Below, piece by piece: positions 12,401 to 30,088 of a stretch of DNA of 35,863 bases. Made by a program: the position numbers and the translations under genes. The notes under the pieces were generated by a model. The model worked only from the letters and a program-made list of their open reading frames with translations. It was not told the DNA's origin and ran no database searches. How positions within the stretch are numbered: the stretch's first letter is position 1; every line of letters begins with the position of its first letter. The DNA lies in contig JAKSMW010000022.1 of NCBI GenBank assembly GCA_024400395.1, forward strand, positions 1-35,863, written 5' to 3'. The DNA is from Bacteroidales bacterium. GTDB taxonomy: Bacteria > Bacteroidota > Bacteroidia > Bacteroidales > F082.

Positions 12401-12843
12401 ACCGGCGTGAACGACGAGAATGCGAAGCCGAAGCCGTTGAGATATTGTGTTATCACAACGCCGTGATTTTCAACTGGATAGATGCCTTTTGACGCATAAA
12501 TCGCCTCGTCTTTGACCAACTCTTTCGGAGCGATGTCGTTCATCGTCCTTGAAGGCTGATATGGAAACAAATTAATGTTTTCTCCAACTTCCTGAAAATC
12601 AGAGAGTTCAACCTCGATTGATTCAGCTTCCGCACCTTGTGGCAGCAAAAGGCTGACTGCGTAATACGGCAACGAAGGCTGACCCTGAAGAGCCGACTGC
12701 ATCGTCCCGTCAAACATAACTTGCTGATAACCGCGGAGTTCCGTGACCTGCGGGTTGTCAAAATGATAGGTCTTTTCAACTGTCTGAGCCTTGATGACAA
12801 AGCTGAAAACCGACAGAAGGACTAAAAGCGTGAGTTTTTTCAT
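9460..12843 (-). CDS. Gingipain-like C25 cysteine peptidase, T9SS-exported (copy 1)
   Basis: The 1127-residue protein starts with an SPI signal peptide (MKKLTLLVLLSVFSFVIKAQ). Residues about 20-200 resemble the C25 propeptide. The caspase-like catalytic domain starts near YDLLIITSSEYVDGY and contains GGDVNIVPFRG, IPADLYYSGLDGTWND, HHDGHAN with catalytic-type H449, and SQGCDCGAFDE with C484. The 35-residue His-Cys spacing is close to that of gingipain RgpB. Ig-like domains (about 600-870) and a jelly-roll domain ending in DCAWIDNVVFPP precede a type-A T9SS sorting domain (from about 1060: NVYPNPAADVINIEL, IGQMVRN, AGMYFVTI). It overlaps the copy 2 stop by ATGA, so translation is probably coupled. 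Cleavage specificity cannot be read from sequence. Confidence 0.92.
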   Translation of the reverse strand: MKKLTLLVLLSVFSFVIKAQTVEKTYHFDNPQVTELRGYQQVMFDGTMQSALQGQPSLPYYAVSLLLPQGAEAESIEVELSDFQEVGENINLFPYQPSRTMNDIAPKELVKDEAIYASKGIYPVENHGVVITQYLNGFGFAFSSFTPVQYIPATGKVMFAKTATVRVNLASSKTDHSVMLWKTNAISNRISKLAQNPEMIESYQTRGREVTGYDLLIITSSEYVDGYAEYQNYYNSIGVRNQIALVSDIYASMTGADNQEKIRNYIIQEYQNNGIMMVVLGGDVNIVPFRGFYCDVLSGGEHMTDNGIPADLYYSGLDGTWNDNGNNRWGEEGEDDLLPEVGISRMSFKNATELANMVNKTLKYQQEPVLGEFHKVILAGEHLYDNPESNGSDYLELLIGTHDDNGYTTTCYPEDYDFTKMYEEEGTWSASGLRQAINAGTSYVHHDGHANSSYVAGWYSVSNSDFSGANGVDHNYTFFHSQGCDCGAFDESCILEKMVTISNFAVAVIGNSRYGWFNEGQTEGPGAHLEREMTDAQFNDRIHFLSCAQADGKCETAPWVTAPGQWEEGALRWNFYDMNVLGDGAVSVWTDEPMEAEVSCPAQIVLGTQSFEVEIADANGNPAKNFRCLVYMDGEVIAMGTTDENGVAEIAFEGGLATVGEMTMKVMGMNAWPQSVELMAVPSDTPYIIYDSYELANGASQIDFATTNAFNMVVKNVGSVGADGITATLSCESEYVTINEATATLGNIAGNQSVTLENAFGFTVSDDVPDNTPVRFNLVCTNGSETWESHFNTRIYAPDFQVVSIELEGENGNAVNPGESATLHFTMKNNGGAAVPSAVFAVFNSHPEIVAEQGEWHLDEIAAGEEYTIDYAFTLSGDAQTGVQYELFFASYYGKYVVEESYYLSVGTSMEGFETGDFSSFEWHHGTVVTAWEVVTENPYEGMYCAKSSMIDDYGTTSLYISVTVAQEAPVSFYYKVSSEANYDKLHFYIDDSEKGNWSGEVAWTQASYTIPAGTHTLKWEYTKDVYSTSGSDCAWIDNVVFPPTTVITDVETVTEQNVNVYPNPAADVINIELGENMSDIVIYNNIGQMVRNLAGMSGTVQVNVSDLNAGMYFVTINNKVEKIVKR

Positions 12844-15800
12844 TTTATTATTAATTTCTGTGTTTTGCCGTTAATATTAATAAGGTATATGCCCGTTTCT
12901 TTTTCAGAAAGGTCGATGTTCAAATCATGCGAAGCGTTTTCATTTTCATAAACCATCTGACCGAGAGAATTAAAAATCTTCACAACATTCTGATTATCAT
13001 CAAGATTCACGACAAATCTTCCGTTATTCGGATTCGGATAAATCCCGAAATCATCTTCCAAATAAGAATATATGTCAGTGATTGTGGCGGTCGGTGGCAG
13101 CGTGATGTCATCGAGCCATGCGCAGTCCTGGCCGGAAGTCGTGGCACCGTCTTTGGCGTAGAACCATCTCAACTGATGATGACCGAATGTAATATCGTAG
13201 GCGGAACGACTCCAGTTCAAATTTCCCGACCACTCGCCCATCATCTCATCGTCGATGTAGAAGAAGAACTTGTCCCAGCCTTGCTCTGACGACACCTTTT
13301 TGAAAAATATAATCTGGTCATTTCCATAGACATCCATTTCAATCACGAGAACTGATTTCAGATTATCGGCAATCGGCGCGGACTTGGCGCAATAGGTGCC
13401 ACCGTGTGGATTTTCAGTCACGACAGTCCAAGGATGCTCTTCGTCATTCTGCCAGTCGAAAGCCGAAAAGTCACCTGTCTCGAAGTCTTCGACAGAATGC
13501 CCGACCGCAATTGCATAATTTCCATAAAAATTCAAATCGGAAGAATATGTACACGTAATCAATTCATAATTAACACCTTCTTCAATATCGGGGGAAAGCG
13601 AAACCTCATAGTCAGCGGTGAACTCTCCGCCGACAGCCACTGATTCGTAACCGAACACATTGTTTCCGTTTTCTATTTCAGGATGAGAGTTGTAAATCGC
13701 AAAACTCACATTTTCCATGCCGCTGTGTCCGATGTTTTTCACTGTGAAATGCAACACCGCCGACTCACCAGGCTGGAGTTGTCCGTCGCCGCCATCCTCA
13801 ATGTCAACATTCACCAAATCAAACATCGGGGCGTTCGCGACAATCTCGAAGGAGCTTGTCCACACATCAGTTCCGTTGGTGCATTCGAGGGTGAACCTAA
13901 CGACATGCTGGTCAGGAATGTTTTTGGAAACAGAGACTTCAAAAACGTTTTCCATCTCAAAGTTGCCGAGGCTGCTGATATTTGCAATCGTTGCCGTTGG
14001 ATTCAGAATCTCAACAAATTCATCGTCAGTCGTCAAAGTCGCCGTAACATTTTGAGCGTCAACAGCTCCGTAATTTTTCACAGTGACATTGAAGGTGAAA
14101 TCATCGCCGTAGTCAACTGTGCCGTCATCGACATTTGCGACGTGGTTCTCATATATAATATAAGGTGTATTCATCATCTGCGAGCTGATTGTCTTGGTTT
14201 GCGGCCAGGCGTTCTGTCCTGTTACGATGAGGTGAAGCTCTCCTTCATAGTCTAACGGATTGCCGAACACGACATTTGCGACATTGTTTTCATCGGTCTC
14301 GCCAAATCCAACAAGTTGATTGTCAGCGAACAAGCTGCAACGGAAGCCTTCAAGGATGTCGCCGGAAGCGTTGTCCAGCTGCACTTCCATGGAAGCTGTT
14401 CCGAGAGTCAGTTCATCGGCGCAGTCGATATTGACGTTCATCGGTTCATCGAGCCACGGGGCTACTGCTCCGTCGCCAAGTACGTTGATGTCGTAGAAGT
14501 TCCAGCGCAGCGCGGCGTTTTCGCCGTTGAGGGCGTTGACCCACGGTGCCGTCTGAACCTTCGCTTCCGTCAAGGCGAGAGCGAGGTTAGGCATCTTCTC
14601 AGTGTATTGAGCGTCAGTCATTTCTCGGTGCAGATGAGCCGAAGGCCCGTCGGTAGTGCCGGGCGAGAACCAGCCGTAGCGCGAGTTACCTATTGCCGCC
14701 ACGCAGAAATTCTGAATCGTGACCATGCGCTCCATGATGCAGTCTTCGTCGAAAGCACCGGCGATGCAGCCGTGAGAGAAGAAAAACGTGTAGTTGTGCG
14801 TGACGCCGTTGACCTGCGAGAAGTTGCTGTCGGTGATGTCCCAGTTATACCAACCTGCGACATAGTTGGAATTTGCGTGTCCTGCGTGATGAGTGTATTG
14901 TCCGCCGAGGTTGATGGCGGCCATCAAGTCGGAACCGATATTCGCGCCGGTCAACTCGTCAACGACGTTGAAATCATAATGTTCTGGTATGCCGATAGTG
15001 GTGTAGCCGTGCTCGTCATGATAACCGACCGCCATATTCAGATACTGGCTGCCGTAAGTCGGGCCGGTGTCGCTCATCCATTCGCTGCCGAACGTAATAT
15101 GCTGAAATTCACCGAGAACAGGATTCTGCTGATACGTCAAAGTCTTGTGAATCATGTTGTTCTGCTGCTGTGCGTTGTTAAAAGGCAGACGCGCCACGCC
15201 GATTTCCGGAAGGAGGTCGTCTTCCCCGATTTCGCCCCATTTGTTGTTATTGTTGTCGTTCCATGTCCCGTCGAGGCCTGCGAAATACAGGTCGGCCGGA
15301 ATCTCCCAGTCTTCGTATTCATCTGAAACATAACAATATAAGCCGCGATAAGGAACGATGTCGATGTCGCCGCCGAGAATCAAAGTGGAAATGCCGTTGT
15401 TCTGATATTCCTGAATGACATAATTCCGGACTTTCTCTGCGTTGTCGCGGCCTTCCATAGCCAGACAAATCTCCTCGACGGTGGTGATACGCGTTCTCCA
15501 GCCGATTCCGTTATAATATTCGACATATTCATCAAAACCTTCAACGTATTGATTTCCAGTGATGACCAAGATATCATAGCCGTCATAAATCAGCTCGCGT
15601 GTTTCGTAAGTTTCCATCATTTCAGGATTTTGTGCGAGTCTTCTCACACTTTCCTTGACGGAAGATGTATTCCTCAACATAGCGGAATGGTCTGATTTTG
15701 AATCACTTGCGTTGACGGTAACTTTCGCCGTCGTTGCGAATGAGACTTTTCCCGTTGCCGGAACGTATCTCACAGGAGTGAACGCCGAGAACGCAAAACC

Positions 15801-16214
15801 ATAGCCGTTTTTGAAATTTGTCGAAAGATTCCCTTCATTATTCGAAGGATAAATTTCTTTAGAGGAATAAACGGCATCGTTCTTTGCAAAAACGAACTTC
15901 TCTGCCTGCGAATAAGGCAAGTCAGCCTGTTTCGGCAAAAGGTTATAAACGCCATCAAGTTCTTGAAAATCTGACAGTTCCACCTTTATTGAAGCGGCTT
16001 CCATCCCATTCGGAAGAAGTAGGCTCACCGACTGCCACGGAAGGCTCGGACAACCGACCTCCGCATTTTGCATCGTGCCTTCAAAACTGATTACATCATA
16101 ACCCATCAATTTATTAACTGACGGATTATCAAAATGATACGTCTTTTCTATCGTCTGAGCTTTAATGAAAAAGCTGAAAAATGAGAAGAAAATTAAAAAT
16201 GATAACTTTTTCAT
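12840..16214 (-). CDS. Gingipain-like C25 cysteine peptidase, T9SS-exported (copy 2)
   Basis: The 1124 residues have the same architecture as copy 1: signal peptide (MKKLSFLIFFSFFSFFIKAQ), propeptide-like region, catalytic domain with HHAGHAN (H446) and SHGCIAGAFDE (C483), Ig-like domains with a DGGDGQLQPGES loop that may bind calcium, a jelly-roll ending DCAWLDDITLPP, and a T9SS sorting domain (GIYPNPNNGRFVVNL, LGQMVYEN, GIYLINI). The second Cys of the GCDC motif in copies 1 and 3 is Ala here. Its last 61 residues differ from copy 3 at only about six positions, although the bodies have diverged much more. The gene is preceded by a hairpin element that recurs at 25318, and its stop overlaps the copy 1 start. 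Confidence 0.92.
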   Translation of the reverse strand: MKKLSFLIFFSFFSFFIKAQTIEKTYHFDNPSVNKLMGYDVISFEGTMQNAEVGCPSLPWQSVSLLLPNGMEAASIKVELSDFQELDGVYNLLPKQADLPYSQAEKFVFAKNDAVYSSKEIYPSNNEGNLSTNFKNGYGFAFSAFTPVRYVPATGKVSFATTAKVTVNASDSKSDHSAMLRNTSSVKESVRRLAQNPEMMETYETRELIYDGYDILVITGNQYVEGFDEYVEYYNGIGWRTRITTVEEICLAMEGRDNAEKVRNYVIQEYQNNGISTLILGGDIDIVPYRGLYCYVSDEYEDWEIPADLYFAGLDGTWNDNNNNKWGEIGEDDLLPEIGVARLPFNNAQQQNNMIHKTLTYQQNPVLGEFQHITFGSEWMSDTGPTYGSQYLNMAVGYHDEHGYTTIGIPEHYDFNVVDELTGANIGSDLMAAINLGGQYTHHAGHANSNYVAGWYNWDITDSNFSQVNGVTHNYTFFFSHGCIAGAFDEDCIMERMVTIQNFCVAAIGNSRYGWFSPGTTDGPSAHLHREMTDAQYTEKMPNLALALTEAKVQTAPWVNALNGENAALRWNFYDINVLGDGAVAPWLDEPMNVNIDCADELTLGTASMEVQLDNASGDILEGFRCSLFADNQLVGFGETDENNVANVVFGNPLDYEGELHLIVTGQNAWPQTKTISSQMMNTPYIIYENHVANVDDGTVDYGDDFTFNVTVKNYGAVDAQNVTATLTTDDEFVEILNPTATIANISSLGNFEMENVFEVSVSKNIPDQHVVRFTLECTNGTDVWTSSFEIVANAPMFDLVNVDIEDGGDGQLQPGESAVLHFTVKNIGHSGMENVSFAIYNSHPEIENGNNVFGYESVAVGGEFTADYEVSLSPDIEEGVNYELITCTYSSDLNFYGNYAIAVGHSVEDFETGDFSAFDWQNDEEHPWTVVTENPHGGTYCAKSAPIADNLKSVLVIEMDVYGNDQIIFFKKVSSEQGWDKFFFYIDDEMMGEWSGNLNWSRSAYDITFGHHQLRWFYAKDGATTSGQDCAWLDDITLPPTATITDIYSYLEDDFGIYPNPNNGRFVVNLDDNQNVVKIFNSLGQMVYENENASHDLNIDLSEKETGIYLININGKTQKLIIK

Positions 16215-16265
16215 GTTACGACTTTTTTACTGATATGGAACCGCTTGCGGTTCTTTTACAAGGTA
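16215..16265 (-). promoter_or_regulatory. Intercistronic hairpin element, site A (CATATCAGTAAAAAAG type)
   Basis: On the - strand, a 7-bp stem GAACCGC/GCGGTTC (16238-16253) with a 2-base loop, which can equally be drawn as 6 bp with a CAAG loop, is followed by CATATCAGTAAAAAAG, then 7 bases, then the ATG of C25 copy 2. The same arrangement occurs on the + strand at 25318-25350. No T-run follows the stem, so it is not a standard terminator. It may control translation or RNA stability between copies 3 and 2. Confidence 0.6.
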
Positions 16266-19200
16266 TTACTTTTTTATTAGTTTCTGTGTTTTACCGTTGA
16301 TATTAATAAGGTATATGCCCGTTTCTTTTTCAGAAATGTCAACATTCAAACTCTGCGAGGCGTTTTCATTTTCATAAACCATCTGACCAAGAGAATTGAA
16401 GATTTTAACAACATTCTGATTATCATCAAGATTCAAGACAAATCTTCCATTGCTCGGATTCGGATGAATCATTACATCGCATTGATTATCAACATCTTCC
16501 TCAATATCCATGATAATTGTTGAGTTTATCGGGAAAGTCACGTTGTCGATGAAAACGGCATCAAGGCCTGCCTGACCTGAAATCGACTTGTCGTAACGCC
16601 ATTCAAGTTCATGTTTGCCCGAATTCAAGTTGTAACTCTTTAATTGCCAATCCATTTCGCCCGACCAGCGGTCTTTCATATCACCGTCAATATAGAAAAC
16701 CAAGTAATCGTGCCTTTCTTCGGTTGAAGTCTTAAAATAGAATGACAAGTTCCCTAATTCAATCACTTCCACATTGATAATCAACGACGTAATCTCGTCA
16801 TCATCAATAATCCCAGAGCGAGCCGAGAACGTTCCCTCGTAAGCGTCAGAATCGGTCACGAGCCATTCCTTGTCGCCGGCAGATTCCCATTCGAGTTTTG
16901 AGAAGTCGCCGGTTTCAAAGTCATCCATAAGATAACCCACTGTCATTGTGTAAGTTAACGACGAGACATATTTTCCGCACTGCGCCGTCGCGTTAAATTT
17001 AACGATGGTGCTGTTCGGGACGTTTTCATCAACATGGAAAACAAATTCCGCCGTAACCTCTTCATTCTCTTGTATTTGCGGATACGACACCGTTGACGTT
17101 TCAATTGTCACCAATTCATTGTCCGCTTCGACATTCAATTCGGTATTTTCGGCGATGACGGAGCCGAAGTTTTTGAAATACACCGACAAAAGTCCGCTTT
17201 CGCCAGGTTCAACGACTCCGTTCCCATTGCCGTCAAGTTCTTCCGCCGACATCGCAAGTATCTGAATATCAGGTGCTGATGCCTTGAATCCGAATGAATT
17301 ATACCAATATCCTGTTGCGTCGTTTGACGTGATGTTAAGAGTTATCGGCCAGCCATTCGGCACATCTTGGTCCATGCAGATTCCGAAAGCGTCGTAAATC
17401 GTATCAACAGACAGAGCGTCAATGCTTTGCAAGTCGGCTTCGGTATTCGTGAACCTGAAATATTCGGGTGCGCAGCACTGTGCGGAAGCGTGAATGTCGT
17501 TTGCCGGAGCACCACCCCAGTTTTTCAAGACGAGGTCGAATGAGACGTTTTCACCCGGTTCAATTTTCCCGTCGCCGTCTTCGTCGTTGGCAATCAATTT
17601 GTAAGGTTTCACGAAAGTGGTGTTGTCGTCAATGCATTCAATGACACGGCTTTGCGGGAACGAGTTCATACCTGTCACCGCCAGTGAAAGCTGGTCAACG
17701 AAATCAACGGGGCGTGAAAGCGTCACTATGGCGTTTCCGGTTTCGTCAGTCACCGCCTCGCCGAGTTTTTCCTCGTAATAAAATATGCTGCAACGGAAAT
17801 TCTTGAGCGGTTGTCCGTTATGTGAGACGTAAATCTCATTCACCGTCTCGCCCTGAAGCATCGCCGGCCGGAACCTCACCGCCGCCTCGAAAGGCTCGTC
17901 GTGCCAAGGACATACGGCGACATCGCCGAGAATGTTGAGGTCATAGAAATTCCATCTCAACGCACCTTCCTCATACTGTCCGGGTGCGGTGACCCACGGT
18001 GCGGTCTGGCATTTCCCTTCGCTGAACGCAATTCCGAGATAAGGAATCCTTTCATTCCAAAATGCGTCCGTCATTTCTCTCTGAAGATGGCACGAAGGGC
18101 CTTCAGTCTGACCTTCATTGAACCAGCCGTAACGCGAGTTTCCGATTACCGAAACAGCGAAATTCTCAATGGTTACAAGTCTTTCCATGATGCTGCCCTG
18201 GTCGAAGGCGGCGCAGTCGCAGCCATGCGAATGGAAGAAAGTGAAGTTGTGGTCAACGCCGTTGGCGCCGGCGAAAAAGCTCGCAGACACACTTGAACCG
18301 TACCATCCCGCGACGTAATCGCTGTTGGCGTGACCGGCATGATGCACATAGCCGCATCCAGCGTTTATGGCGTTGCGCAGTTTAGTGCCGCTCCAGTTGC
18401 CGTCCTCATCGTAAAGACGCACGAAATCGTAATTTTCATCAATGCCGACTGTCGTGTAGCCGTTGTCGTCATGTTCGCCAATCAAAAGTTCAAGATACTG
18501 ACTGCCTTGAGTGTAAGGATAGTCGTAAAGTTTTTCGCCGCCCAAGACAATAGTGCGGAACTCTCCAAGCACCGGAATCTGTTGATACTTAACGATTTTA
18601 TTCAAAATATTGGCGAGTTGCGTTTCATTGTTGAAAGGCATTCTCGCAATTCCGATTTCCGGATAGAGGTCGTCTTCGCCAGGCTCGCCCCAGCGGTCGT
18701 TGCCGTTGTCGTTCCACGTCCCGTCAAGGCCTGAATAATAAAGGTCGGCTGGAATGCCATTGTCAGTGTTATGACTTCCGCCGGTAAGCACGTCGCAGTA
18801 GAAACCGCGGAACGGCACCAATGCGACATCGCCGCCCAAAAGCACCATCAAAATGTCATTATCCTGATATTCCTGAATGATGAAATTACGGATCTTTTCT
18901 TGATTGTCAACGCCTTGCATTGAAGAATAAATTGACTCAACCGAAACCACATCTGTCCTGATGTCATGATAACAATAAAACTGAACATAGTTGTCAAAGT
19001 TTGAAACATATTGTTCCGGCGTAATCACAAGAAGCTCATAGCCTTGCAATGATTTTTCATCGGTTTTCACGTATGAATCAAGCATTTCCGGATTCTGCAC
19101 AAGCGACTTGACTTTGCTGATGATTTGCGGGCGTGACGAAAGCATTTTTGGATCCGACTTTTCGTCTTTACAAGTATTGATTTTTATATTTACAGTCTTG

Positions 19201-19679
19201 GCAATCAATACTTTACCTTCAGATGGAACATATTTCACAGGAGTGAAAGACGACACCGCAACAGAATAACCATTAACATATTGCGTAGTCAGAACTCCAT
19301 GATTTTCAGCAGGATAAACGCTCTTTGAAGAATAAACCGCCTCATCTTTATAAAATTTCGTGCGTTCCAAATCATTATAGGTTCTTGAAGGCTGATAAGG
19401 AAACAATTGAAAATCGCCATTAAGTTCTTGAAAATCAGACATTTCAACTTCCATCGACTCGGCTTTTGTTCCCTGTGGAAGCAGCAGCGTCACCGAATGC
19501 CACGGCAACGTCGGTTGACCTGCGAGTGCCGACTGCATACAGTCTTTCAGCTCAATCTGGACATAGCCTTCTATTGATTTAACATCGTGATTATCAACAT
19601 AATAAGTCTTTTCAATTGTCTGCGCATTAAGCAAAATGACAGTTAAAAACAGTACTAATGACAGCGTTATCTTTTTCAT
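16266..19679 (-). CDS. Gingipain-like C25 cysteine peptidase, T9SS-exported (copy 3, first in operon)
   Basis: I chose the ATG at 19677-19679, giving 1137 residues, because it opens the signal peptide (MKKITLSLVLFLTVILLNAQ) and because upstream codons fall inside the -7 box. Propeptide-like region, then the catalytic domain (YELLVITPEQYVSNF, GGDVALVPFRG, HHAGHAN with H450, SHGCDCAAFDQ with C487). Two Ig-like units begin with acidic loops DEDGDGKIEPGE and DGNGNGVVEPGE, which look like calcium sites. A jelly-roll domain and a T9SS sorting domain (MIHPNPSNGRFVLNL, LGQMVYEN, GIYLINI) end the protein. It is first in the three-gene array and diverges from the GH3 gene. It is probably secreted and attached to the surface. 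Confidence 0.92.
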   Translation of the reverse strand: MKKITLSLVLFLTVILLNAQTIEKTYYVDNHDVKSIEGYVQIELKDCMQSALAGQPTLPWHSVTLLLPQGTKAESMEVEMSDFQELNGDFQLFPYQPSRTYNDLERTKFYKDEAVYSSKSVYPAENHGVLTTQYVNGYSVAVSSFTPVKYVPSEGKVLIAKTVNIKINTCKDEKSDPKMLSSRPQIISKVKSLVQNPEMLDSYVKTDEKSLQGYELLVITPEQYVSNFDNYVQFYCYHDIRTDVVSVESIYSSMQGVDNQEKIRNFIIQEYQDNDILMVLLGGDVALVPFRGFYCDVLTGGSHNTDNGIPADLYYSGLDGTWNDNGNDRWGEPGEDDLYPEIGIARMPFNNETQLANILNKIVKYQQIPVLGEFRTIVLGGEKLYDYPYTQGSQYLELLIGEHDDNGYTTVGIDENYDFVRLYDEDGNWSGTKLRNAINAGCGYVHHAGHANSDYVAGWYGSSVSASFFAGANGVDHNFTFFHSHGCDCAAFDQGSIMERLVTIENFAVSVIGNSRYGWFNEGQTEGPSCHLQREMTDAFWNERIPYLGIAFSEGKCQTAPWVTAPGQYEEGALRWNFYDLNILGDVAVCPWHDEPFEAAVRFRPAMLQGETVNEIYVSHNGQPLKNFRCSIFYYEEKLGEAVTDETGNAIVTLSRPVDFVDQLSLAVTGMNSFPQSRVIECIDDNTTFVKPYKLIANDEDGDGKIEPGENVSFDLVLKNWGGAPANDIHASAQCCAPEYFRFTNTEADLQSIDALSVDTIYDAFGICMDQDVPNGWPITLNITSNDATGYWYNSFGFKASAPDIQILAMSAEELDGNGNGVVEPGESGLLSVYFKNFGSVIAENTELNVEADNELVTIETSTVSYPQIQENEEVTAEFVFHVDENVPNSTIVKFNATAQCGKYVSSLTYTMTVGYLMDDFETGDFSKLEWESAGDKEWLVTDSDAYEGTFSARSGIIDDDEITSLIINVEVIELGNLSFYFKTSTEERHDYLVFYIDGDMKDRWSGEMDWQLKSYNLNSGKHELEWRYDKSISGQAGLDAVFIDNVTFPINSTIIMDIEEDVDNQCDVMIHPNPSNGRFVLNLDDNQNVVKIFNSLGQMVYENENASQSLNVDISEKETGIYLININGKTQKLIKK

Positions 19680-19700
19680 TATTGACGTATAAAAAACAAG

Positions 19701-19708
19701 CAAAAATA
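19701..19708 (-). promoter_or_regulatory. Bacteroidetes -7 box, C25 peptidase array
   Basis: On the - strand it reads TATTTTTG, 21 bases before the chosen ATG at 19679. No clear -33 TTTG is seen. It is the only good promoter found for the three-gene array. Confidence 0.6.
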
Positions 19709-20000
19709 CAAAAAATATGAATTGACCCGCTAATTAATAAATAAAACTGAAAACACGCGCGAACATTTGTATATTGCAGGAAAATCATTTTGTTTTTTCG
19801 GGCACGTTTTTGGCGTGAAAATCAGCAGATCATAAAACATGATTTTTCGTCTTTTTCACAAAACGAGCACAAAAATTGTATATATTTTTTTACAAAATAA
19901 TCGAAACCAATTGATTATCATCAGAAATGAAAATCATCTCTTTTTCGAAAAAAATTTCAAATGTAAAAATAAATTAACCTAAACGTATTACATAATTTGG
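19709..20000. other. AT-rich divergent intergenic region
   Basis: The gap of about 350 bases between C25 copy 3 and the GH3 gene holds the two outward promoters at its ends. The middle is AT-rich, with runs such as CATGATTTTTCG and TATATATTTTTTT. I see no gene, tRNA or clear strong hairpin in it. It is long for this window, so it may hold operators for either side. Confidence 0.5.
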
Positions 20001-20008
20001 TAATTTTG
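20001..20008 (+). promoter_or_regulatory. Bacteroidetes -7 box, GH3 gene
   Basis: TAATTTTG matches TAnnTTTG, 23 bases before the ATG at 20032. Its last base overlaps an inverted repeat GTTGAAA-A-TTTCAAC (20008-20022) at the expected transcription start. Confidence 0.6.
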
Positions 20009-20022
20009 TTGAAAATTTCAAC
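20008..20022. promoter_or_regulatory. Inverted repeat at transcription start of GH3 gene
   Basis: GTTGAAA and TTTCAAC are perfect inverted arms around one central A. The position, right at the expected +1, would suit a repressor operator, but 7-bp AT-rich arms can occur by chance in this base composition. Confidence 0.35.
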
Positions 20023-20031
20023 TCGAGAAAA

Positions 20032-22317
20032 ATGAAAAAGTATATAATCTTATCATTTGCGATAATATTTTTGGTTGGTTGTTCATCACCAAAGGCAGAC
20101 GGTATTGACACAAAAGTGGAATCTCTGCTTAGTCAGATGACTGTAAATGAGAAAGTTGGGCAGTTATGTTGTCCGATTGGTTTTAATTTTTACGAAAAAG
20201 TCAACGACAGCACTGTGATTCTCAACGAAGCGTTTATGAAAATGTGGGACACTTTGCAGTGCGGCGGGTTTTACGGCGTTCTCCGTGCCGACCCGTGGTC
20301 GCAGAAGACAATAGAATCAGGTCTTGACGAGCGGCAGTCAGTATTGATTTTCAATGAGATGCAGCGTAATGCGATAGAAAATTCACGGTTTGGAATCCCT
20401 ATTTATTTCGCTGAAGAATGCGTTCACGGTTTCATGGCGGTCAACGCCACTGTTTTCCCCATCGGCATCTGTCAGGCGGCCACGTGGGACGAGGATCTGC
20501 TGTATAAAGTCGGTGACGCAGTCGGAGCCGAGGCTGCCGCACGCGGCGCAAAGTTTGCATACGGCCCAGTCATTGACATCACCCGCGACCCACGCTGGTC
20601 ACGCGTGGAAGAAAGCCTCGGAGAAGACCCTTATCTTTCCGGAACACTAGGCACTGCCATAATGAAAGGCATGCAGAATCACCTTGCAAGCACCTTGAAA
20701 CATTTCTCCTCATTCGGTGTCTCGGAAGGCGGACATCACGGCTCGGGGACTTCGGCCGGAAACCATGAGATATTGGCAGAATTGAACTCAAATTTTGAGA
20801 CAGCAGTAAGAAACGATGCCAAAAGCATCATGACGTCATACAATTGCATTGACGGAATCCCTTGTACATCAAACAGATGGCTGCTAAAAGACATACTTCG
20901 TGAACGATGGGGATTCGACGGAGTGGTTTTTTCGGACCTCGGCAGCATCTGGGCTTTGCACAGCACCCACCGCACCGCTGAAGACCAACTTGAAGGGACG
21001 GCCCAAGCCATCAACGCAGGTGTAGATATTGACCTCGGCGCATCCAACTACGGCGCATTCCTCGAAGACGCCGTGAACAAAGGACTTGTATCAATGGAGA
21101 CTCTCGACAACGCCGTCCGTAATGTATTGAAATTCAAATACGAATCCGGACTGTTCGACAACCCGTATCTTCCAGTCCCTGACGAGCCGACAGATTGTCA
21201 CGCAGCCATCAAGGAATTAGCACTTCAGACAGCCCGCGAAGGCATCGTGCTTCTGAAAAACGACGGTATCTTGCCTCTTTCAAAAGACATTGAAAACATC
21301 GCCGTCATAGGGCCGAACGCCGACAACACCTACAACCAACTCGGCGACTACACCGCACCGCAGAATCCCGACGACATCATCACAGTGTTGGAGGGAATAC
21401 GCAATCATGTATCTTCAACAGCAACAGTCACTTACGCAAAAGGATGCTCGGTGCGCGACACCGATGACGCCGATTTTGACGCGGCACTGAAAGCGACAAA
21501 AAACGCCGACGCCACAGTCCTTGTCGTAGGCGGCTCATCGGCACGCAATTTCAAGACATCGTACAGGTCAACAGACACCGTGATTCTTGACGGTCACGTC
21601 GCCGACATGGACTGCGGAGAAGGCTATGACCGCGCAACGATCTCATTATCAGGACTTCAAGACAGACTTATCGAAGCCGTCGCCGCCACCGGCAAGCCGC
21701 TTGTCATCGTCTTCATCGAAGGAAGACCTCTTCTGAAAAACACCGCCGTCGAGAACGGCAACGCCGTCATGACAGCTTTCTATCCCGGACAAGAAGGCGG
21801 GAACGCCATCGCTGACGTTATCTTCGGTAATTACAATCCGGCAGGAAGACTTCCGATGTCACAACCACGCTCGGTCGGGCAGATCCCGGTGTATTATTCG
21901 CAACCGAAGCAACGCGACTATATCGACTGCCAAAGCTCGCCGCTGTTCCCATTCGGCCACGGATTAAGTTATACGAAATTTGATTATAACAACTTGAATA
22001 TCAACATTGATTCCGCACAAAACGTCATTGTAACCGTCGAGGTGACAAACGCAGGTGACTACGACGGCGACGAGGTGGTACAGCTTTATGTGCGCGACGA
22101 AATCGCATCTGTCGCGCCACCCGAAAAACTGCTTAAGGGCTTCAAGCGCATTTTCATACAACGCAATGAAACAAAGACAGTTACATTCACATTAAAACCG
22201 CATGATTTCTCCATTCTAAACGAGAAACTCGAATGGAAAGCGGAGCCAGGCGACTTCACAATCATGGTCGGAACTTCGTCAGACGACATAAGGCAAAGAC
22301 AAATTATAAATTTGTAA
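20032..22317 (+). CDS. Glycoside hydrolase family 3 beta-glycosidase, lipoprotein (BglX-like)
   Basis: The 761 residues open with an SPII signal (MKKYIILSFAIIFLVGC, lipid Cys17), so the enzyme is membrane-anchored and faces the periplasm or outside. GH3 barrel at about 30-360: RDPRWSRVEESLGEDPYLSG, KHFSSFGVSEGG, and the nucleophile motif GFDGVVFSDLG with D302. The alpha/beta sandwich covers about 390-620 (REGIVLLKNDGILPL, GEGYDRATISL). A fibronectin-III-like C-terminal domain follows FPFGHGLSYTKF. GH3 enzymes remove terminal beta-linked glucose, xylose or related sugars; the sugar cannot be read with certainty. It is divergent from the C25 array. There is no SusC/SusD pair nearby, so this is not a standard polysaccharide utilisation locus. 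Confidence 0.93.
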   Translation: MKKYIILSFAIIFLVGCSSPKADGIDTKVESLLSQMTVNEKVGQLCCPIGFNFYEKVNDSTVILNEAFMKMWDTLQCGGFYGVLRADPWSQKTIESGLDERQSVLIFNEMQRNAIENSRFGIPIYFAEECVHGFMAVNATVFPIGICQAATWDEDLLYKVGDAVGAEAAARGAKFAYGPVIDITRDPRWSRVEESLGEDPYLSGTLGTAIMKGMQNHLASTLKHFSSFGVSEGGHHGSGTSAGNHEILAELNSNFETAVRNDAKSIMTSYNCIDGIPCTSNRWLLKDILRERWGFDGVVFSDLGSIWALHSTHRTAEDQLEGTAQAINAGVDIDLGASNYGAFLEDAVNKGLVSMETLDNAVRNVLKFKYESGLFDNPYLPVPDEPTDCHAAIKELALQTAREGIVLLKNDGILPLSKDIENIAVIGPNADNTYNQLGDYTAPQNPDDIITVLEGIRNHVSSTATVTYAKGCSVRDTDDADFDAALKATKNADATVLVVGGSSARNFKTSYRSTDTVILDGHVADMDCGEGYDRATISLSGLQDRLIEAVAATGKPLVIVFIEGRPLLKNTAVENGNAVMTAFYPGQEGGNAIADVIFGNYNPAGRLPMSQPRSVGQIPVYYSQPKQRDYIDCQSSPLFPFGHGLSYTKFDYNNLNINIDSAQNVIVTVEVTNAGDYDGDEVVQLYVRDEIASVAPPEKLLKGFKRIFIQRNETKTVTFTLKPHDFSILNEKLEWKAEPGDFTIMVGTSSDDIRQRQIINL

Positions 22318-22342
22318 TGCTTTAATTTTTTTAATATCTTTG
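22311..22342 (+). promoter_or_regulatory. Full Bacteroidetes promoter (-33 and -7) before the deacetylase-like gene
   Basis: TTTG at 22311-22314 and TATCTTTG at 22335-22342 are separated by 20 bases, the best full match in the window. The -33 box overlaps the last codon of the GH3 gene. The ATG at 22347 is only 4 bases after the -7 box, so the message may begin at, or a few bases from, the start codon. Confidence 0.75.
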
Positions 22343-22346
22343 CGCC

Positions 22347-23672
22347 ATGGAAATGCTCATTCTCGTAAATAAAAGAACAAACAGGTTATATTATATCTTT
22401 GAATTGATTTTCAAAGACTTGCTTGGGATAAACTTCAAAATCACGACAGATAACGAGGTTTTCACTTCATACGACGGCCCGAAATTCCATTACGGCACCA
22501 ACCAGTTTTGGAACGAGCCTTTTCAGAAAGCCTCAAGCCTGCTTTATGAACGAAACATTCACAGCATCCCCGACAGCGATTTGAAAATCATCGACCACAA
22601 CGACACGAAAACGATTTTCCCTGTTTACAACGACAAGTCGATGTTCCCGTTCGACCCTTTCGCCGCGTCGTTTTACTTGGTCTCACGTTACGAAGAATAT
22701 CTTCCGCATGTCCGTGACAAATACAGCAGATTTCAAGCCAAAGATTCTATTTTATTCAAAATGAATATGTTAGAAAAACCTTTGGTAAATATCTGGGCTA
22801 ATGAAATTGGTGACAAACTAAAGGAGTTCTACCCCGAGCTTCAATTCAAGAAGAAATCTTTCACTTTCATTCCGACCTACGACGTTGACGCGGCATGGGC
22901 ATATAAAAACAAAGGTGTGGTCAGGACTGTGGTTGCAACAATACGCGACCTCTCAAATTTTGATTTCAAAGAAATCGGGACAAGAATACGTGTCCTCACA
23001 AAAAAAACAAAGGATCCATTCTACACATTTGACAAGCAAATCAAATGGCAGAAAGAATTCAAATTGCGTCCGATTTATTTCATCCTTTGCGGTGAATATG
23101 ACTTGTATGACAAAAACACGCCGTTAAGAAACGTTGATTTTCAGAATCTTATAAAAAAACTCGGTGACTATGCCGATGTCGGAATCCATCCTTCATTCTC
23201 ATCTTTTCTCAATGTTGAAAAGATAAAGACCGAGATTCAGAATCTTTCAAAAGTCCTCAAACGGGAGATCACGAAAAGCAGACAGCATTACCTGAGGCTG
23301 AATCTTCCGGAAAGCTACAAAAAACTCATACAGCTCGACATAACTGACGATTACACAATGGGTTACGCCTCGCAGGTCGGATTCCGCGCGGGCATCGCCG
23401 ACACCTTCCGCTTCTTCGACCTCGCACAGGACAGCAGCACCAACCTTTACATCCACCCGTTTGCGGTGATGGACGGCACCTTGCGCGACTACCTCGATTT
23501 AGACTGCGAGAAATCATTTGAAAAAGTCAAGGAACTTGTCACGGAAGTGAAGAAAGTCAACGGGACATTCATCCTCCTTTGGCACAACGAAACGCTCAGC
23601 GGAGAGAAACGCTGGGTCGGCTGGGAAACTTTGTACGAAAACATCTTGAACTTTGCACTTGAAACGAAATGA
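22347..23672 (+). CDS. Polysaccharide deacetylase-like protein (DUF7033 type)
   Basis: The 441 residues have an N-terminal domain starting at once (ILVNKRTNRLYYIFELIFKDLLG), typical of the Bacteroidetes proteins annotated as polysaccharide deacetylase with a DUF7033 domain. The NodB-like barrel follows: FIPTYDVDAAWAY (metal-site Asp pair), LRPIYFILCGEYDLYDK, DVGIHPSFSS (His), SRQHYLRLNLPESY, TDDYTMGYASQVGFRAG, YIHPFAVMDGTL and ILLWHNETLSG. There is no signal peptide. The substrate is unknown; action on an envelope or exported glycan is inferred. A second in-frame ATG is at 22353. It overlaps the next gene by ATGA. Confidence 0.85.
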   Translation: MEMLILVNKRTNRLYYIFELIFKDLLGINFKITTDNEVFTSYDGPKFHYGTNQFWNEPFQKASSLLYERNIHSIPDSDLKIIDHNDTKTIFPVYNDKSMFPFDPFAASFYLVSRYEEYLPHVRDKYSRFQAKDSILFKMNMLEKPLVNIWANEIGDKLKEFYPELQFKKKSFTFIPTYDVDAAWAYKNKGVVRTVVATIRDLSNFDFKEIGTRIRVLTKKTKDPFYTFDKQIKWQKEFKLRPIYFILCGEYDLYDKNTPLRNVDFQNLIKKLGDYADVGIHPSFSSFLNVEKIKTEIQNLSKVLKREITKSRQHYLRLNLPESYKKLIQLDITDDYTMGYASQVGFRAGIADTFRFFDLAQDSSTNLYIHPFAVMDGTLRDYLDLDCEKSFEKVKELVTEVKKVNGTFILLWHNETLSGEKRWVGWETLYENILNFALETK

Positions 23673-24598
23673 TAACTTATCTAACTCATAATCAAATAGA
23701 TACACAACGTTGGGACGAATGCATTTCAAATTCGCCAAACGGGAACGTCTATGCCTGGTCGTGGTATCTCGACGTCGTTCACCCGAATTGGGACGCCTTG
23801 ATTGAAGACGATTATGAGAGTGTCATGCCGTTGACAGGAAACCGTAAATTTGGCATTTCATATCTGTTTCAGCCGTTTTTCACGCAACAACTCGGAATTT
23901 TTTCAAAAAACAAAACAGACAAAAACAAAGTCCGAAAATTCATCGATGCGATTCCAGACAGATTCAAGTTTGCCGAAATACGTCTCAATTCAGATAACAG
24001 TTTTTTTGACAATTGTCAAAATATTGAATATCATAGAAATACAGAATTAAACCTATCATCGGATTATGATTCTTTGAGAAAAAATTACAACAGCAACACC
24101 AAACGTGATTTAGCGAAAGCTGAAACCGCTAATCTGAAAAATTCAGACGATGTTGAAACGGCAGAAATCGTGAACCTTTTCAGGGAAAACAGGGGAAAAT
24201 GCATAAGACACTGGGGAGACGCTGAATATGAAAGATTTATGAATTTGACCGATGTTGCAAGAAGCAAAGGTCATTGTTTTGTGAAAGGCGTTAAAAACAC
24301 TGACAATGAATTAGTTGCGGGTGCCATTTTCATGACAAGTCACGGCAGGATTGTGTTTCTGTTTTCAGGGGCTGACGAATCGAACAAAGAGCTTCATGCG
24401 CTTTCGTTCCTCATCGACAATGTGATAAAGGAGAACAGCGGCACACCGAAAATTTTCGATTTCGAAGGCTCGGATAATGACGGATTAGCGAGATATTACA
24501 AGGGTTTCGGAGGACAAGAGGTTAAATATCCAAGTCTGCGTTTCAACAAAACGCGAGGTGCGGTCAGATTTCTGTTAAAGATTTTTAAGGAAAAGTAA
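23669..24598 (+). CDS. GNAT/FemAB-like acyltransferase
   Basis: The 309 residues resemble Bacteroidetes GNAT-fold proteins with two acyltransferase lobes (FemAB type): YAWSWYLDVVHPNWDALI, MPLTGNRKFGISYLFQPFFTQQLGIF, NYNSNTKRDLAKAE, then VAGAIFMTSHGRIVFLFSGAD, LHALSFLIDNVI and FDFEGSDNDGLARYYKGFGGQEVKYPSLRF. The last part is typical of the second lobe in this family. The start overlaps the deacetylase-like stop by ATGA, so the two are translated together and may modify the same envelope glycan or peptide; that is inference. No signal peptide; cytoplasmic. The exact acceptor is not known. Confidence 0.82.
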   Translation: MITYLTHNQIDTQRWDECISNSPNGNVYAWSWYLDVVHPNWDALIEDDYESVMPLTGNRKFGISYLFQPFFTQQLGIFSKNKTDKNKVRKFIDAIPDRFKFAEIRLNSDNSFFDNCQNIEYHRNTELNLSSDYDSLRKNYNSNTKRDLAKAETANLKNSDDVETAEIVNLFRENRGKCIRHWGDAEYERFMNLTDVARSKGHCFVKGVKNTDNELVAGAIFMTSHGRIVFLFSGADESNKELHALSFLIDNVIKENSGTPKIFDFEGSDNDGLARYYKGFGGQEVKYPSLRFNKTRGAVRFLLKIFKEK

Positions 24599-24618
24599 AA
24601 CCACTAAAATTTTAAGAT

Positions 24619-25281
24619 ATGGTAAAAATAATTGAATTAGGTGCGACCAACAGCATCATCAACGATTTCATCGCCGAACTAAGAAACGTTGAGATTCAGA
24701 ATGACAGGATGCGTTTCCGCAAAAACCTCGAACGCATCGGAGAACTGACGGCGTATGAGATAAGCAAAACGCTTGATTATAAAGACATTAACATCACCAC
24801 GCCACTTGGTGTCAAGGAGACGAAGACATTGGCGAACCAGATTGTCTTGGGGACGATTTTCCGTGCCGGCATTCCATTCCATCAAGGTTTCCTGAATATT
24901 TTCGACAAGGCCGACAACGCTTTCATCGCGGCGTACAGGAAATACCAGAAAGGTGACGATTTCGACATCATGGTTGAATATTGCGCCTCGGCAAATATCG
25001 AGGATAACATCTTGATACTCACCGACCCGATGCTCGCAACCGGTTCATCGTTGATTCATTGCATCAACAGGTTGCTCGAAAACGGCGACATTCACCCGAA
25101 ACACCTGCATCTGTCCGCAATCATTGCAAGCAAGGAAGGCGTTGATTATGTCAAGAATAACATCAGCACCGATGCGACACTCTGGGTCGGGAACATTGAC
25201 GACGAGCTTACAGCGAAATCATATATCGTTCCGGGGTTGGGCGACGCCGGAGACCTGGCATACGGCCCGAAAGGGGAATAG
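24619..25281 (+). CDS. upp: Uracil phosphoribosyltransferase
   Basis: The enzyme makes UMP from uracil and PRPP (pyrimidine salvage, cytosol). The 220-residue length is as expected. RMRFRKNLERIGELTAYEISKTLDY near the N-terminus is the UPRT helix with the conserved Arg/Glu; VLGTIFRAGIPFHQGFLNIF follows; ILTDPMLATGSSLIHCINRLL is the PRPP-binding loop; IVPGLGDAGDLAYG is the uracil-binding hood. The gene follows the GNAT gene by 20 bases. Its stop codon TAG is the first TAG of a TAGAGAT array. Confidence 0.96.
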   Translation: MVKIIELGATNSIINDFIAELRNVEIQNDRMRFRKNLERIGELTAYEISKTLDYKDINITTPLGVKETKTLANQIVLGTIFRAGIPFHQGFLNIFDKADNAFIAAYRKYQKGDDFDIMVEYCASANIEDNILILTDPMLATGSSLIHCINRLLENGDIHPKHLHLSAIIASKEGVDYVKNNISTDATLWVGNIDDELTAKSYIVPGLGDAGDLAYGPKGE

Positions 25282-25313
25282 AGATTAGAGATTAGAGATT
25301 AGAGATTAGAGAT
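25279..25313 (+). repeat. Heptamer array TAGAGAT, five units, starting at the upp stop codon
   Basis: Five exact TAGAGAT units begin with the TAG stop codon of upp and lead into the hairpin element at 25318. Confidence 0.85.
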
Positions 25314-25317
25314 TAAA

Positions 25318-25350
25318 GAGCTGCGTAGCAGTTCCATATCCGTAAAAAAG
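25318..25350 (+). promoter_or_regulatory. Hairpin element, site B, before the sodium-dependent transporter
   Basis: A 7-bp stem GAGCTGC/GCAGTTC (one G:T pair) with loop GTA is followed by CATATCCGTAAAAAAG, then 5 bases, then the ATG at 25356. Site A upstream of C25 copy 2 has the same layout. The C:G pair of site A is T:A here, so pairing is kept while sequence changes. See the finding on this element. Confidence 0.6.
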
Positions 25351-25355
25351 AAAAT

Positions 25356-26708
25356 ATGGCAGAAAAAAAGAAAAGGGATCATTTTGGTTCAAAGATTGGT
25401 ATCATTGCGGCGGCGGTCGGGTCGGCTGTCGGCTTGGGTAACATTTACAGGTTTCCGTGCATGGCTGGCGAGAACGGCGGCGGGGCGTTCCTAATTGTGT
25501 ATATCGGGATAGTGTTGGCGCTCGGCCTCCCGATGATGGTCAGCGAGTTCGTTATCGGAAGACGGTCGCAGAGAAACCCTGTAGGCGCGTTCAAAACCTT
25601 GGCTTCAGGTGCGAAAGGCTGGCCGTTGATAGGTTACATGGGCGTGCTGTGCGGATTCCTCATCCTTACATTCTACACCACGGTGGCCGGCTGGACAATC
25701 GAGTCCGTTTATAAATCAATCATCAACTATTATCAGGGAAAAAATCTCGCAGAAATTGAACAAGGATTTAACGATTCCATTAACATGACTTTCAGGCCAT
25801 TGCTATGGCAGGCAGTGTTCATCTTCATCTCAGCTTTTGTCATCGTAAAAGGAATCGAGAAAGGCATCGAGAAATACTCAAAAATCCTGATGCCGACACT
25901 CACAGTGATACTTATTATATTGTGTGTCAAATCGTTGATGTTGCCGGGGGCTTTTGAAGGCATGAAGTTTCTCTTCAAACCCGACTTCTCTAAAATCGAC
26001 GGGCACGTGCTGATAAGCGCACTCGGACAAGTGTTCTTCTCGATGAGCCTCGGCATGGGAGCACTTATAACCTACGGCTCATACATCTCCAAGAAAGACA
26101 ACCTCGTCACCACCTCGCTGATGGTCGGACTGTCAGACACCTTCGTCGCAATCCTCGCCGGCATCATCATCTTCCCGGCGGCGTTCTCGTTCGGCATACG
26201 ACCAGAAGCCGGACCGTCGCTGGCGTTCAACACCCTGCCGTTGATTTTCAACCAAATGAAAGGCGGTTATTTCTTCTGCCTCATTTTCTTCATACTTCTC
26301 GTCATCGCTGCATGGACATCAGCGCTGTCGCTGTTCGAAGTCATAGTCTCTTACCTGACCGAAGAACTCAAGTTGTCACGACGGAAAGCCACAATATACA
26401 GTTCTGTAGGGGCATTCATTATCAGTATTTTAGCCGCCATGAGCCTGCACAATGACAGCAGTCTAACCATCTTCGGATTCACCGTTTTCGACGGCTTGGA
26501 CAAAATAACCTCAATGGTGCTTATGACACTCGGCGGACTTTTCACCGTGATATTCTTAGGGTGGAAAGTGAAAAAACAAGATTTCGAAGACGAGTTCACC
26601 AACGGCGGAATCGTCAATATGCGATTGAAGAAAATTTTTTATTTCATAATCAAATACTTGGCTCCAGTGGCGATCGCCGTCATCATGGTCAGCCAGTTCA
26701 TAATTTAA
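25356..26708 (+). CDS. Sodium-dependent transporter, neurotransmitter:sodium symporter (SNF/NSS) family
   Basis: The 450 residues have about 11 membrane segments in the LeuT fold. SKIGIIAAAVGSAVGLGNIYRFPCMAGENGGGAFLIVY is the conserved TM1 and start of TM2, with the unwound VGLGNIYRFP segment carrying Na+ and substrate contacts. ITYGSYI in TM6 and the later AFSFGIRPEAGPSLAFNTLP are also typical. Bacterial members take up amino acids such as Leu, Trp or Tyr with Na+; the substrate here is not known. It lies 18 bases before the HhH gene. Its leader carries the site B hairpin element. Confidence 0.94.
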   Translation: MAEKKKRDHFGSKIGIIAAAVGSAVGLGNIYRFPCMAGENGGGAFLIVYIGIVLALGLPMMVSEFVIGRRSQRNPVGAFKTLASGAKGWPLIGYMGVLCGFLILTFYTTVAGWTIESVYKSIINYYQGKNLAEIEQGFNDSINMTFRPLLWQAVFIFISAFVIVKGIEKGIEKYSKILMPTLTVILIILCVKSLMLPGAFEGMKFLFKPDFSKIDGHVLISALGQVFFSMSLGMGALITYGSYISKKDNLVTTSLMVGLSDTFVAILAGIIIFPAAFSFGIRPEAGPSLAFNTLPLIFNQMKGGYFFCLIFFILLVIAAWTSALSLFEVIVSYLTEELKLSRRKATIYSSVGAFIISILAAMSLHNDSSLTIFGFTVFDGLDKITSMVLMTLGGLFTVIFLGWKVKKQDFEDEFTNGGIVNMRLKKIFYFIIKYLAPVAIAVIMVSQFII

Positions 26709-29454: not shown

Positions 29455-30030
29455 ATGTTGAACATAATTCTTTTCGGGCCTCCAGGTGCGGGCAAAGGCA
29501 CTCAGTCACAACAACTTAAAGAAAAATACAATCTCACTTACCTTTCGACGGGCGACATCCTCCGCGAGGAGATGGCAGCCGAGACGGAGATCGGCAAGAA
29601 GGTGAAAGACATCATCAGCAAAGGCGGATTAGTCAGCGACGAGATCGTGGTCTCCATCATCAGAGGCAGGGTCGAAGCCAACCAGAAGTCGGCAGGTTTC
29701 CTCTTCGACGGATTCCCGCGCACCGTGCGTCAGGCAGAGATGTTAGACGGCATCATGAACGAGTTCTCGTTGAAAATCAACGCCGTCCTCAGCCTTGAAG
29801 TCCCCGAAGAAATCCTCATCAACCGCATGATCGAACGCGGCAAGACAAGCGGACGCGCCGATGACAACATCGACTCGATCAAGCACCGCTTCGTGGAATA
29901 CGACGAGAAGACAAAACCCGTCCTCGCCTATTACGAAAAACAAGGCAACCTCAAGGGAATCAACGGAGTAGGCCAAATTGAAGACATCTTCGCGACACTC
30001 TGCGGGGAGATTGACAAGATAAAAAAGTAG
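29455..30030 (+). CDS. adk: Adenylate kinase
   Basis: Interconverts ATP + AMP with 2 ADP. The 191 residues are the short-lid form. P-loop GPPGAGKGTQ (residues 8-17), AMP site YLSTGDILREEM and KGGLVSDEIVVSII, then GFLFDGFPRTVRQAEML, and RMIERGKTSGRADDNIDSIKHRF in place of the long zinc-type lid. The gene is probably cotranscribed with hpt. Its TAG stop is directly followed by AAAGTT repeats. Confidence 0.97.
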   Translation: MLNIILFGPPGAGKGTQSQQLKEKYNLTYLSTGDILREEMAAETEIGKKVKDIISKGGLVSDEIVVSIIRGRVEANQKSAGFLFDGFPRTVRQAEMLDGIMNEFSLKINAVLSLEVPEEILINRMIERGKTSGRADDNIDSIKHRFVEYDEKTKPVLAYYEKQGNLKGINGVGQIEDIFATLCGEIDKIKK

Positions 30031-30077: not shown

Positions 30078-30088
30078 TGCGCAAAGCG

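Follow-up and report, generated by a model that had tools for sequence, protein, structure and literature searches.

Repetitive extragenic palindrome (REP)-like hairpins ahead of start codons in a Bacteroidales clade, most likely spread by a Y1 transposase

Two unrelated genes of a Bacteroidales bacterium, one for a C25 (gingipain-type) peptidase and one for an SNF-type sodium:solute symporter, are each preceded by a short hairpin followed by a common tail. Both hairpins, sites A and B, lie in the stretch of DNA analysed here (the window, 35,863 nucleotides), which is the whole of contig C15 of the genome that we call G000 (2.12 Mb in 61 contigs, 83% complete). What are these sites, and how did they come to stand before start codons? 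As argued below, they are most likely (with a probability of about 0.75) copies of a REP-like element that was spread by a Y1 transposase in the ancestor of the clade.

The repeat family and its distribution

Site A carries the hairpin GAACCGC-AA-GCGGTTC on the minus strand (16253-16238), then the tail CATATCAGTAAAAAAG (16237-16222) and seven bases (16221-16215) leading to an ATG at 16214. At site B, the hairpin GAGCTGC-GTA-GCAGTTC (plus strand, 25318-25334) is followed by the tail CATATCCGTAAAAAAG (25335-25350) and, after five bases, by an ATG at 25356. The preliminary description of this DNA had proposed a 7-bp stem, a short loop and a common tail near an ATG at both sites, A:T to G:T and C:G to T:A changes between the two stems, and unrelated genes downstream; all of this agrees with the sequence, and Pfam assigns the downstream genes to the C25 peptidases (site A) and the SNF-type symporters (site B). 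It had also recognised no named RNA family, and a search of the window with the curated Rfam covariance models likewise gave no match at gathering scores. The RNA fold predicted for site A has six pairs and a 4-nt loop, which refines the 7-bp stem; folding energies were −9.7 kcal/mol for site A and −10.4 kcal/mol for site B (z of −2.6 and −3.1 relative to shuffled sequences). An extra pairing of the bases before the stem with the tail, present in one fold, was by eye inconsistent between the two element types described below and was dropped. Sigma-70-type promoter-like matches near the two sites were no commoner than in shuffled sequences, a count limited by the fact that the sigma-70 consensus is not valid for Bacteroidetes promoters.

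An 18-base tail pattern with up to three mismatches matched the window twice, where 0.07 matches were expected (two or more in 1 of 100 shuffles). Over the whole of G000, up to two mismatches gave 7 matches against 0 for a reversed control and a 13-base pattern with one mismatch gave 21 against 5; the pattern CCGNNNNCGGTTC by itself was not enriched (17 matches, 19 in the reversed control). Fifteen G000 copies found by pattern were aligned and built into a model with a 7-bp stem (R1). Searching G000 with R1 returned 27 matches at E≤0.01, that is, the 15 copies used for model building plus 12 more; 23 matches were obtained at E≤1e-5 and 36 at E≤10, 30 of which were read, the last three not being credible by eye. 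The preliminary description would have given way had the genome held no further copies, or copies lacking the stem or the position relative to start codons; stemmed copies do precede start codons elsewhere in G000. Matches of the tail pattern in viral contigs were not interpreted, since we estimate that its 14 specified bases would recur by chance in such a large collection.

The G000 consensus reads GAACCGC-GTA-GCGGTTC-CATATCCGTAG-AAAA: the element consists of a 7-bp hairpin, then on the same strand CATATCNGTAG or a close variant, then often an A-rich stretch. The four tag bases that end the tail are GTAA in 8 of the 27 G000 copies, GTAG in 7, ATAG in 4 and others in 8; both window copies end in GTAA, not GTAG. 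A second subtype has the sequence AACCGCATAGCGGTTACATATCA(G/A)TA, and the start codon overlaps the end of the tail in some copies (L185, L187, L190, L191). No ATG-led frame of at least 60 codons runs right across 25 of the 27 copies; antisense frames of 120 and 214 codons cross two copies (L177 and L187).

When 40 genomes, G000 included, were searched with R1, seven gave a match at E≤0.1, and more than three matches were found only in G000 (27), G006 (20) and G023 (17, weak). The G023 copies mostly carry another stem, GCACCCC-ATC-GGGGTGC, with a tail of like kind, CATATCGGTAGAAA. We call the GAACCGC-stemmed copies type A and the GCACCCC-stemmed copies type B; from one type to the other the stem is swapped and the tail retained. 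A second model, R2, was made from 27 sequences of both types selected from 40. In its alignment 96.8% of the cells pair and the covariation score is 0.459 (0.181 when shuffled), with 32 cells changed on both sides against 13.9 in shuffles, mostly through the single A/B stem exchange. For type A alone (15 rows), 95.2% of the cells pair and both sides changed in 4 cells against 1.3 in shuffles, a count equalled in 7 of 500 shuffles. R2 matched 22 of 99 genomes of the genus at E≤0.001, and at least 12 copies were present in only 10 of them: G023 (62), G041 (54), G053 (38), G094 (29), G091 (26), G000 (24), G006 (18), G008 (17), G081 (16) and G077 (12); the remaining genomes had 0 to 5.

Six of these are type-A genomes, in which we examined 161 R1 matches: at E≤0.01, 27 in G000, 20 in G006, 16 in G077, 28 in G091 and 30 in G094, all searched whole, and 40 in G041, which came from fetched places only rather than from a genome-wide run of R1. 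Orientation was scored by the presence of an ATG-led frame of 100 residues within 130 nt, in both directions, excluding six copies that flank a transposase gene in G041. Among these 155 elements, 110 had such a frame on the sense side only, 8 on the reverse side only, 22 on both sides and 4 on neither; 11 were near contig edges. Copies at orthologous sites are not independent of one another; the G000 sites are separate places, and there 19 copies had the frame on the sense side only, 6 on both sides, none on the reverse side only and 1 on neither, with 1 at an edge, meaning that 25 of the 26 testable copies face a start codon, with a median gap of 8 nt. With another gene-calling rule the downstream gene was on the same strand in 25 G000 copies, on the opposite strand in 1 and missing in 1 (135, 20 and 6 over the six genomes, G041 flanks included). 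A permissive rule of 50 residues gave 131 sense against 3 reverse, and the stricter two-way test of 100 residues was preferred. For 24 of the 27 G000 copies, the gene before the element also lies on the element's own strand. As the copies thus lie mostly in co-directional spacers, in the sense direction and just before a start, the element is probably transcribed as a hairpin plus leader.

We then looked at the symporter downstream of site B, whose gene was obtained from 28 of 30 genomes, and read by eye the 170 nt preceding it. The spacer contains the element in G000, G094, G077 and G006 (in the last, one full and one half copy), an element without the 5' half-stem in G091, and none in 23 of the 28 genomes. 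This site is therefore occupied in all five type-A genomes where the gene was found, once by a half stem; the G000 symporter query gave no match in G041. Identity to the G000 symporter is 99% in G094, 88% in G077, 87% in G091 and 85% in G006, and 70% in the next genome. Altogether, 29 groups of similar downstream genes (more than 55% identity, so that paralogues may be included) have the element in two to six species. Since these sites are shared, many of the copies now at orthologous positions are old and vertically inherited. No clean empty site was obtained within the clade, and the ends of the insertion are for that reason not fixed.

Some tandem copies resemble duplications of the element plus its flank (for example L450). 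Two copies precede one gene in G006 and G041 (L202 and L311), and G000 has one (L169); the 3' flank of the latter matches the second G006/G041 copy and its 5' flank resembles the first G006 copy, as if the two had been joined by a deletion. Head-to-tail arrays of four to six repeats precede genes in G023, G041 and G008 (L326, L318 and L376).

Y1 transposase genes and their flanking hairpins

The link to a transposase comes from G041, where a Y1 transposase gene (155 residues, L246:1489-1956) is flanked by the element. Two type-A copies lie upstream on the plus strand, in the direction of the gene, and four lie downstream on the minus strand, so that the tails point inward; the four downstream copies end in ATAG, and another, different hairpin also stands upstream. 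The protein matches Pfam Y1_Tnp (PF01797) with 98 bits and NCBIfam transpos_IS200 with 73.2 bits (cut-off 55); against NCBIfam REP_Tyr_transpos it scores 33.4 bits, below the cut-off of 80. The solved chains that it matches (2xm3, 2xma, 2xo6, 2fyx and 2f4f) are all transposases, and its motif is YIENQEEHH. The gene is single copy in G041. Its best match in the six other genomes searched, at 50-51%, is in G053, and nothing was found at E≤1 in G000, G006, G052 or G067.

Other transposases have other hairpins. Those on contigs C162 of G053 and C26 of G008 have type-B repeats on both sides (GCACCCC stems, -TCGGTAG tails or close variants) and are sister rows in the tree (100/100); the G081 gene and a second G008 gene have flanking hairpins whose stems or tails differ again and whose end is -TCGGTAG. 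The Y1 matches listed number 131 in 60 genomes, and we read 29 loci, which are a subset of these together with loci from a dedicated check of type-A and related genomes. The signature Y...Q..HH was present in 28 of the 29; at L247 a wrong frame was taken. A permissive script, run without a shuffled control, looked on the expected sides of each gene for a hairpin having GTAG within 14 nt; it scored at least one side at 15 of the 29 loci and both sides at 5, worked from the wrong frame at L247 and did not pick up the copies downstream of L487. In a tree built from 28 Y1 proteins, the type-B pair L487 and L489 are sisters, L256 and L258 (TCGGGAC) go together, and L244, L249 and L251, with GCATCCGCC or TCATCCGCC hairpins, form a starred group; the G041 protein (L246) sits on a long branch. 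The tie between stem and protein across the tree is partial, because L481, L486, L248 and L255 remain in an open fork.

Two closely related Y1 genes in G094 and G041 (L480 and L485) are bordered by a hairpin of 25 nt at one end and by one of 17 nt at the other, and look like an ordinary IS200-type element.

Several results weigh against spread by such an enzyme. A first test, by presence of the gene in each genome, went against the idea: no Y1 gene over the cut-off was found in G000 (83% complete), G006 or G077 (rated 100% complete), and no matching transposase was found in five of the six type-A genomes. In G091 and in G094 a single Y1 gene exceeds the cut-off, and a hairpin scan showed hairpins other than type A beside it. 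G023, with its 62 mainly type-B copies, has a single Y1 gene over the cut-off, flanked instead by CCAGGGC hairpins, and in the tree the two other transposases with GCACCCC stems are not joined by L481, which has that stem too and lies in an open fork. The idea was nevertheless retained because the element flanks the gene in G041, and we consider spread by a transposase well supported. The missing genes are read as loss of the enzyme after the spread in most type-A genomes, although incomplete assemblies cannot prove a loss.

The mechanism that we propose is as follows. A Y1 transposase (HUH/tyrosine, IS200-like, of subclass 1.2 by its signature) would have recognised the element, hairpin and tail, in single-stranded form and would have spread copies through the ancestor of a gut Bacteroidales clade. 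The hairpin flanks a transposase gene in one sibling, as observed; recognition and movement we infer. Other direct observations are the family itself with its hairpin and tail, the placement of its copies, the tie to a Y1 gene in a sibling and the sharing of many sites between species. Once in place, the element may have been kept in the sense direction by selection. More tentatively, the likeliest effect on the cell would be a local one, in which the hairpin might shield or separate neighbouring messages and the tail might keep the start region unstructured; the element could plausibly act on translation or on the stability of the mRNA.

Alternatives and relation to known systems

The alternative that survives best is a functionless selfish repeat, whose bias would come from insertion itself, either into the coding strand exposed by transcription or into an A-rich target before starts. 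We hold this for a serious contender at somewhat under even odds. The transposase gene flanked by copies and the patchy distribution suit it, as does the base composition next to the element: of 157 type-A copies, 101 have A at five or more of the ten positions that follow GTA. If insertion alone set the orientation, however, the related GCACCCC-type repeats do not follow: in a partial sample of 38 type-B clusters lying outside transposase flanks, 20 were in the same direction as the gene, 12 opposite, 5 mixed and 1 without a gene. This absence of a significant sense bias in type B also weighs against the main reading. Moreover, pairing is preserved in 34 of the 53 stem variants counted at orthologous sites.

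Those variants bear as well on the second alternative, a cis-regulatory RNA, that is, a 5' leader under direct selection that sets translation or stability, with the transposase as its origin only. We regard this as possible, if less likely than not. For it speak the 25 of 26 testable G000 copies in sense before a start at a median of 8 nt, and the symporter site, with an element in all five type-A genomes that have the gene. The stems point the same way in part. Over every group of orthologous sites, 53 non-majority stem-pair states were counted, of which 34 pair (25 G-U and 9 Watson-Crick) and 19 do not (5 A-C and 14 other); over 141 distinct copies there were 54 G-U, 15 A-C and 36 other mismatches. 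The excess of G-U suggests that it is the sense strand that pairs, and is compatible with RNA and with single-stranded DNA alike. Pair-keeping double changes were seen at only two positions of one locus, before an FKBP-type isomerase, and double changes that break pairing in four pairwise comparisons. Against selection on the structure stand the 19 of 53 variants that break the stem, the half-stem of G091, and a higher divergence of stem pairs (181 of 1204 comparisons over species pairs) than of tail positions (152 of 1720). The downstream genes are diverse, too: the nine families examined comprise the C25 peptidase, the symporter, the FKBP isomerase, the L-PSP endoribonuclease family, rubrerythrin, Phe-tRNA synthetase, an EngA-type GTPase, CstA and an epimerase. 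A regulon was rejected on this ground, and the element does not look like a regulon-type switch. The preliminary description had left the choice between an RNA structure and a mobile repeat; the mobile half gained from the flanked G041 transposase and the patchy distribution, and for the regulatory half the evidence is circumstantial, namely sense orientation, retention at orthologous sites and the preference for G-U over A-C on the sense strand.

That the copies are intrinsic terminators for the genes before them is highly improbable: a same-strand upstream gene, whose end is often only a few tens of nucleotides away, precedes 24 of the 27 G000 copies, but TTTT occurs within 20 nt after the stem in only 5 of 157 copies, and a terminator scan gave 0 sites in 15900-16600 and 1 in 25000-25700, located elsewhere (25181-25165), so that neither A nor B has a terminator-like site and this reading was rejected. 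That two hairpins resemble each other by chance, as the mere two in the window could suggest, is refuted by the 0.07 expected there, the 27 copies in G000 and the copies before similar genes in five sibling species.

Spread by a Y1 transposase, the reading that we prefer, invites comparison with REPs. The element is a 20-40 bp intergenic multicopy palindrome like them, in tens and not hundreds of copies (G000 27, G041 54, G023 62), and a transposase flanked by its cognate repeats exists for type A in G041 and for other stems in G053, G008 and G081. Three defining features fail. GT[AG]G lies within 2 nt 5' of the stem in only 6 of 157 type-A copies, and the tag that should mark the 5' foot stands instead on the 3' side, after CATATCN or similar, as GTAG in 53 copies, GTAA in 44 and ATAG in 31. 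Pairing of copies in opposite orientation, as in REP doublets forming hairpins (REPINs) or bacterial interspersed mosaic elements (BIMEs), is absent, none of 79 type-A clusters being mixed once the two G041 transposase flanks are excluded. The G041 protein is not a class 2 transposase with a Y...NP motif. Because of these failures the element, which acts like a REP, is a variant and not a member.

The likeness to GTAG REPs with REP-associated tyrosine transposases (RAYT, or TnpAREP), the so-called REPtrons, extends to several further traits: short, palindromic, intergenic and multicopy repeats, with GTAG in some copies here; inverted copies flanking a Y1 gene; transposases with repeat families of their own; G-T pairs in the stem; and location between co-directional genes (PMC3733652, PMC8266576). 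Unlike in REPtrons, the tag follows the hairpin on its 3' side at a distance of about 7 nt, a difference that tells against our reading as does the mixture of tag bases, the transposase is not Y...NP, and type A shows no mixed clusters away from the gene. In the 2013 survey, unidirectional REPs lie near the 3' end of the upstream gene at a varying distance from the next (PMC3733652, PMC8266576), whereas type-A copies are in sense shortly before starts.

By its Pfam match and the solved chains, the G041 protein is a Y1 transposase of the kind found in the insertion sequences (IS) IS200/IS605. A tetranucleotide standing 3' of a hairpin is reminiscent of the right end of these elements. The family here differs from them in that the flanking copies are in opposite orientation on either side of the gene and dispersed copies occur without the gene. 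The signature Y---Q--HH with HUH, found in 28 of 29 loci, is that of TnpAY1 subclass 1.2, to which the proteins would belong by this signature. This subclass occurs in Bacteroidetes and generally lacks typical terminal IS200 structures (PMC6006769); the signature and the phylum are the same here, and several of our transposases differ in being flanked by tagged hairpins with dispersed copies. Two further Bacteroidetes subclasses appear in the same source: 2.4, with canonical and double-foot REPs and the motif YIxNNP, and 2.6, with atypical flanking structures, copies elsewhere in the genome and the motif YIH[QN]NP (PMC6006769). They share the phylum with our proteins, which instead have Y...Q..HH, and REPs are consequently not new to the phylum.

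The results would give subclass 1.2, described as generally without IS-type ends, a likely substrate. A broader proposal is that in Bacteroidales this subclass consists of repeat-spreading enzymes with their own 3'-tagged (-NGTAG) palindromes, a type of REPtron that the papers found do not describe, and that one clade turned the copies into sense leader hairpins after loss of the enzyme in most species; we advance it with reserve and below even confidence, partly because the exact GTAG is present in only a third of type-A copies. A literature search, with subscription papers mostly outside it, returned no description of the element or of a subclass 1.2 REP system in Bacteroidales. The family also offers a natural domestication experiment, with a repeat at orthologous starts in several species, with and without the enzyme, and with intact, changed and half-lost stems.

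Other features of the window

The features around the two sites are listed in Table 1.

Table 1. Sites A and B and adjacent features of the window
Feature	Position	Strand	Evidence
Site A, REP-like element	16222..16258	-	sequence; R1 match 49.3 bits, E 1.8e-10; R2 match
Site B, REP-like element	25313..25350	+	sequence; R1 match 49.7 bits, E 1.4e-10; R2 match
C25 (gingipain-type) peptidase with type IX secretion sorting tail, downstream of site A	12840..16214	-	open reading frame; Pfam Peptidase_C25, Por_Secre_tail
Another C25 peptidase, upstream of site A, same strand	16266..19703	-	open reading frame; Pfam
Uracil phosphoribosyltransferase, upstream of site B, same strand	24619..25281	+	open reading frame; Pfam UPRTase
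SNF-type sodium:solute symporter, downstream of site B	25356..26708	+	open reading frame; Pfam SNF
Tandem 7-mer array, TAGAGAT x5.9, immediately 5' of site B	25279..25319	+	Tandem Repeats Finder

The TAGAGAT array before site B is read as a separate feature of the spacer, because by eye several congeners carry 7-mer arrays at the symporter spacer without the hairpin. At G000 loci, a measure that misses imperfect arrays scored a strong 7-mer period for 2 of the 11 spacers with an element and for 2 of the 19 without; on these counts and the congener arrays, the view that 7-mer arrays belong to the element is not supported. TAACTGA heptamers, known from Beggiatoaceae and some Bacteroidetes, lie mostly forward and just upstream of start codons (PMC4679880). 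Type-A copies share this forward placement before starts, and the 7-mer array at site B resembles these heptamers; those are tandem 7-mers, which here form a separate feature.

Two more tandem 7-mer arrays occur in the window, at 30024-30078 (AAAGTTG) and 1509-1546 (TTTTAGT), and resemble the TAACTGA heptamers as the one at site B does. On the minus strand, 9460-19703 contains a run of three C25 (gingipain-type) peptidase genes with sorting tails for type IX secretion, and longer tandem arrays are located at 3485-3630 (units of 23, 47 and 70 bp) and 30117-30209 (units of 8, 25 and 33 bp).

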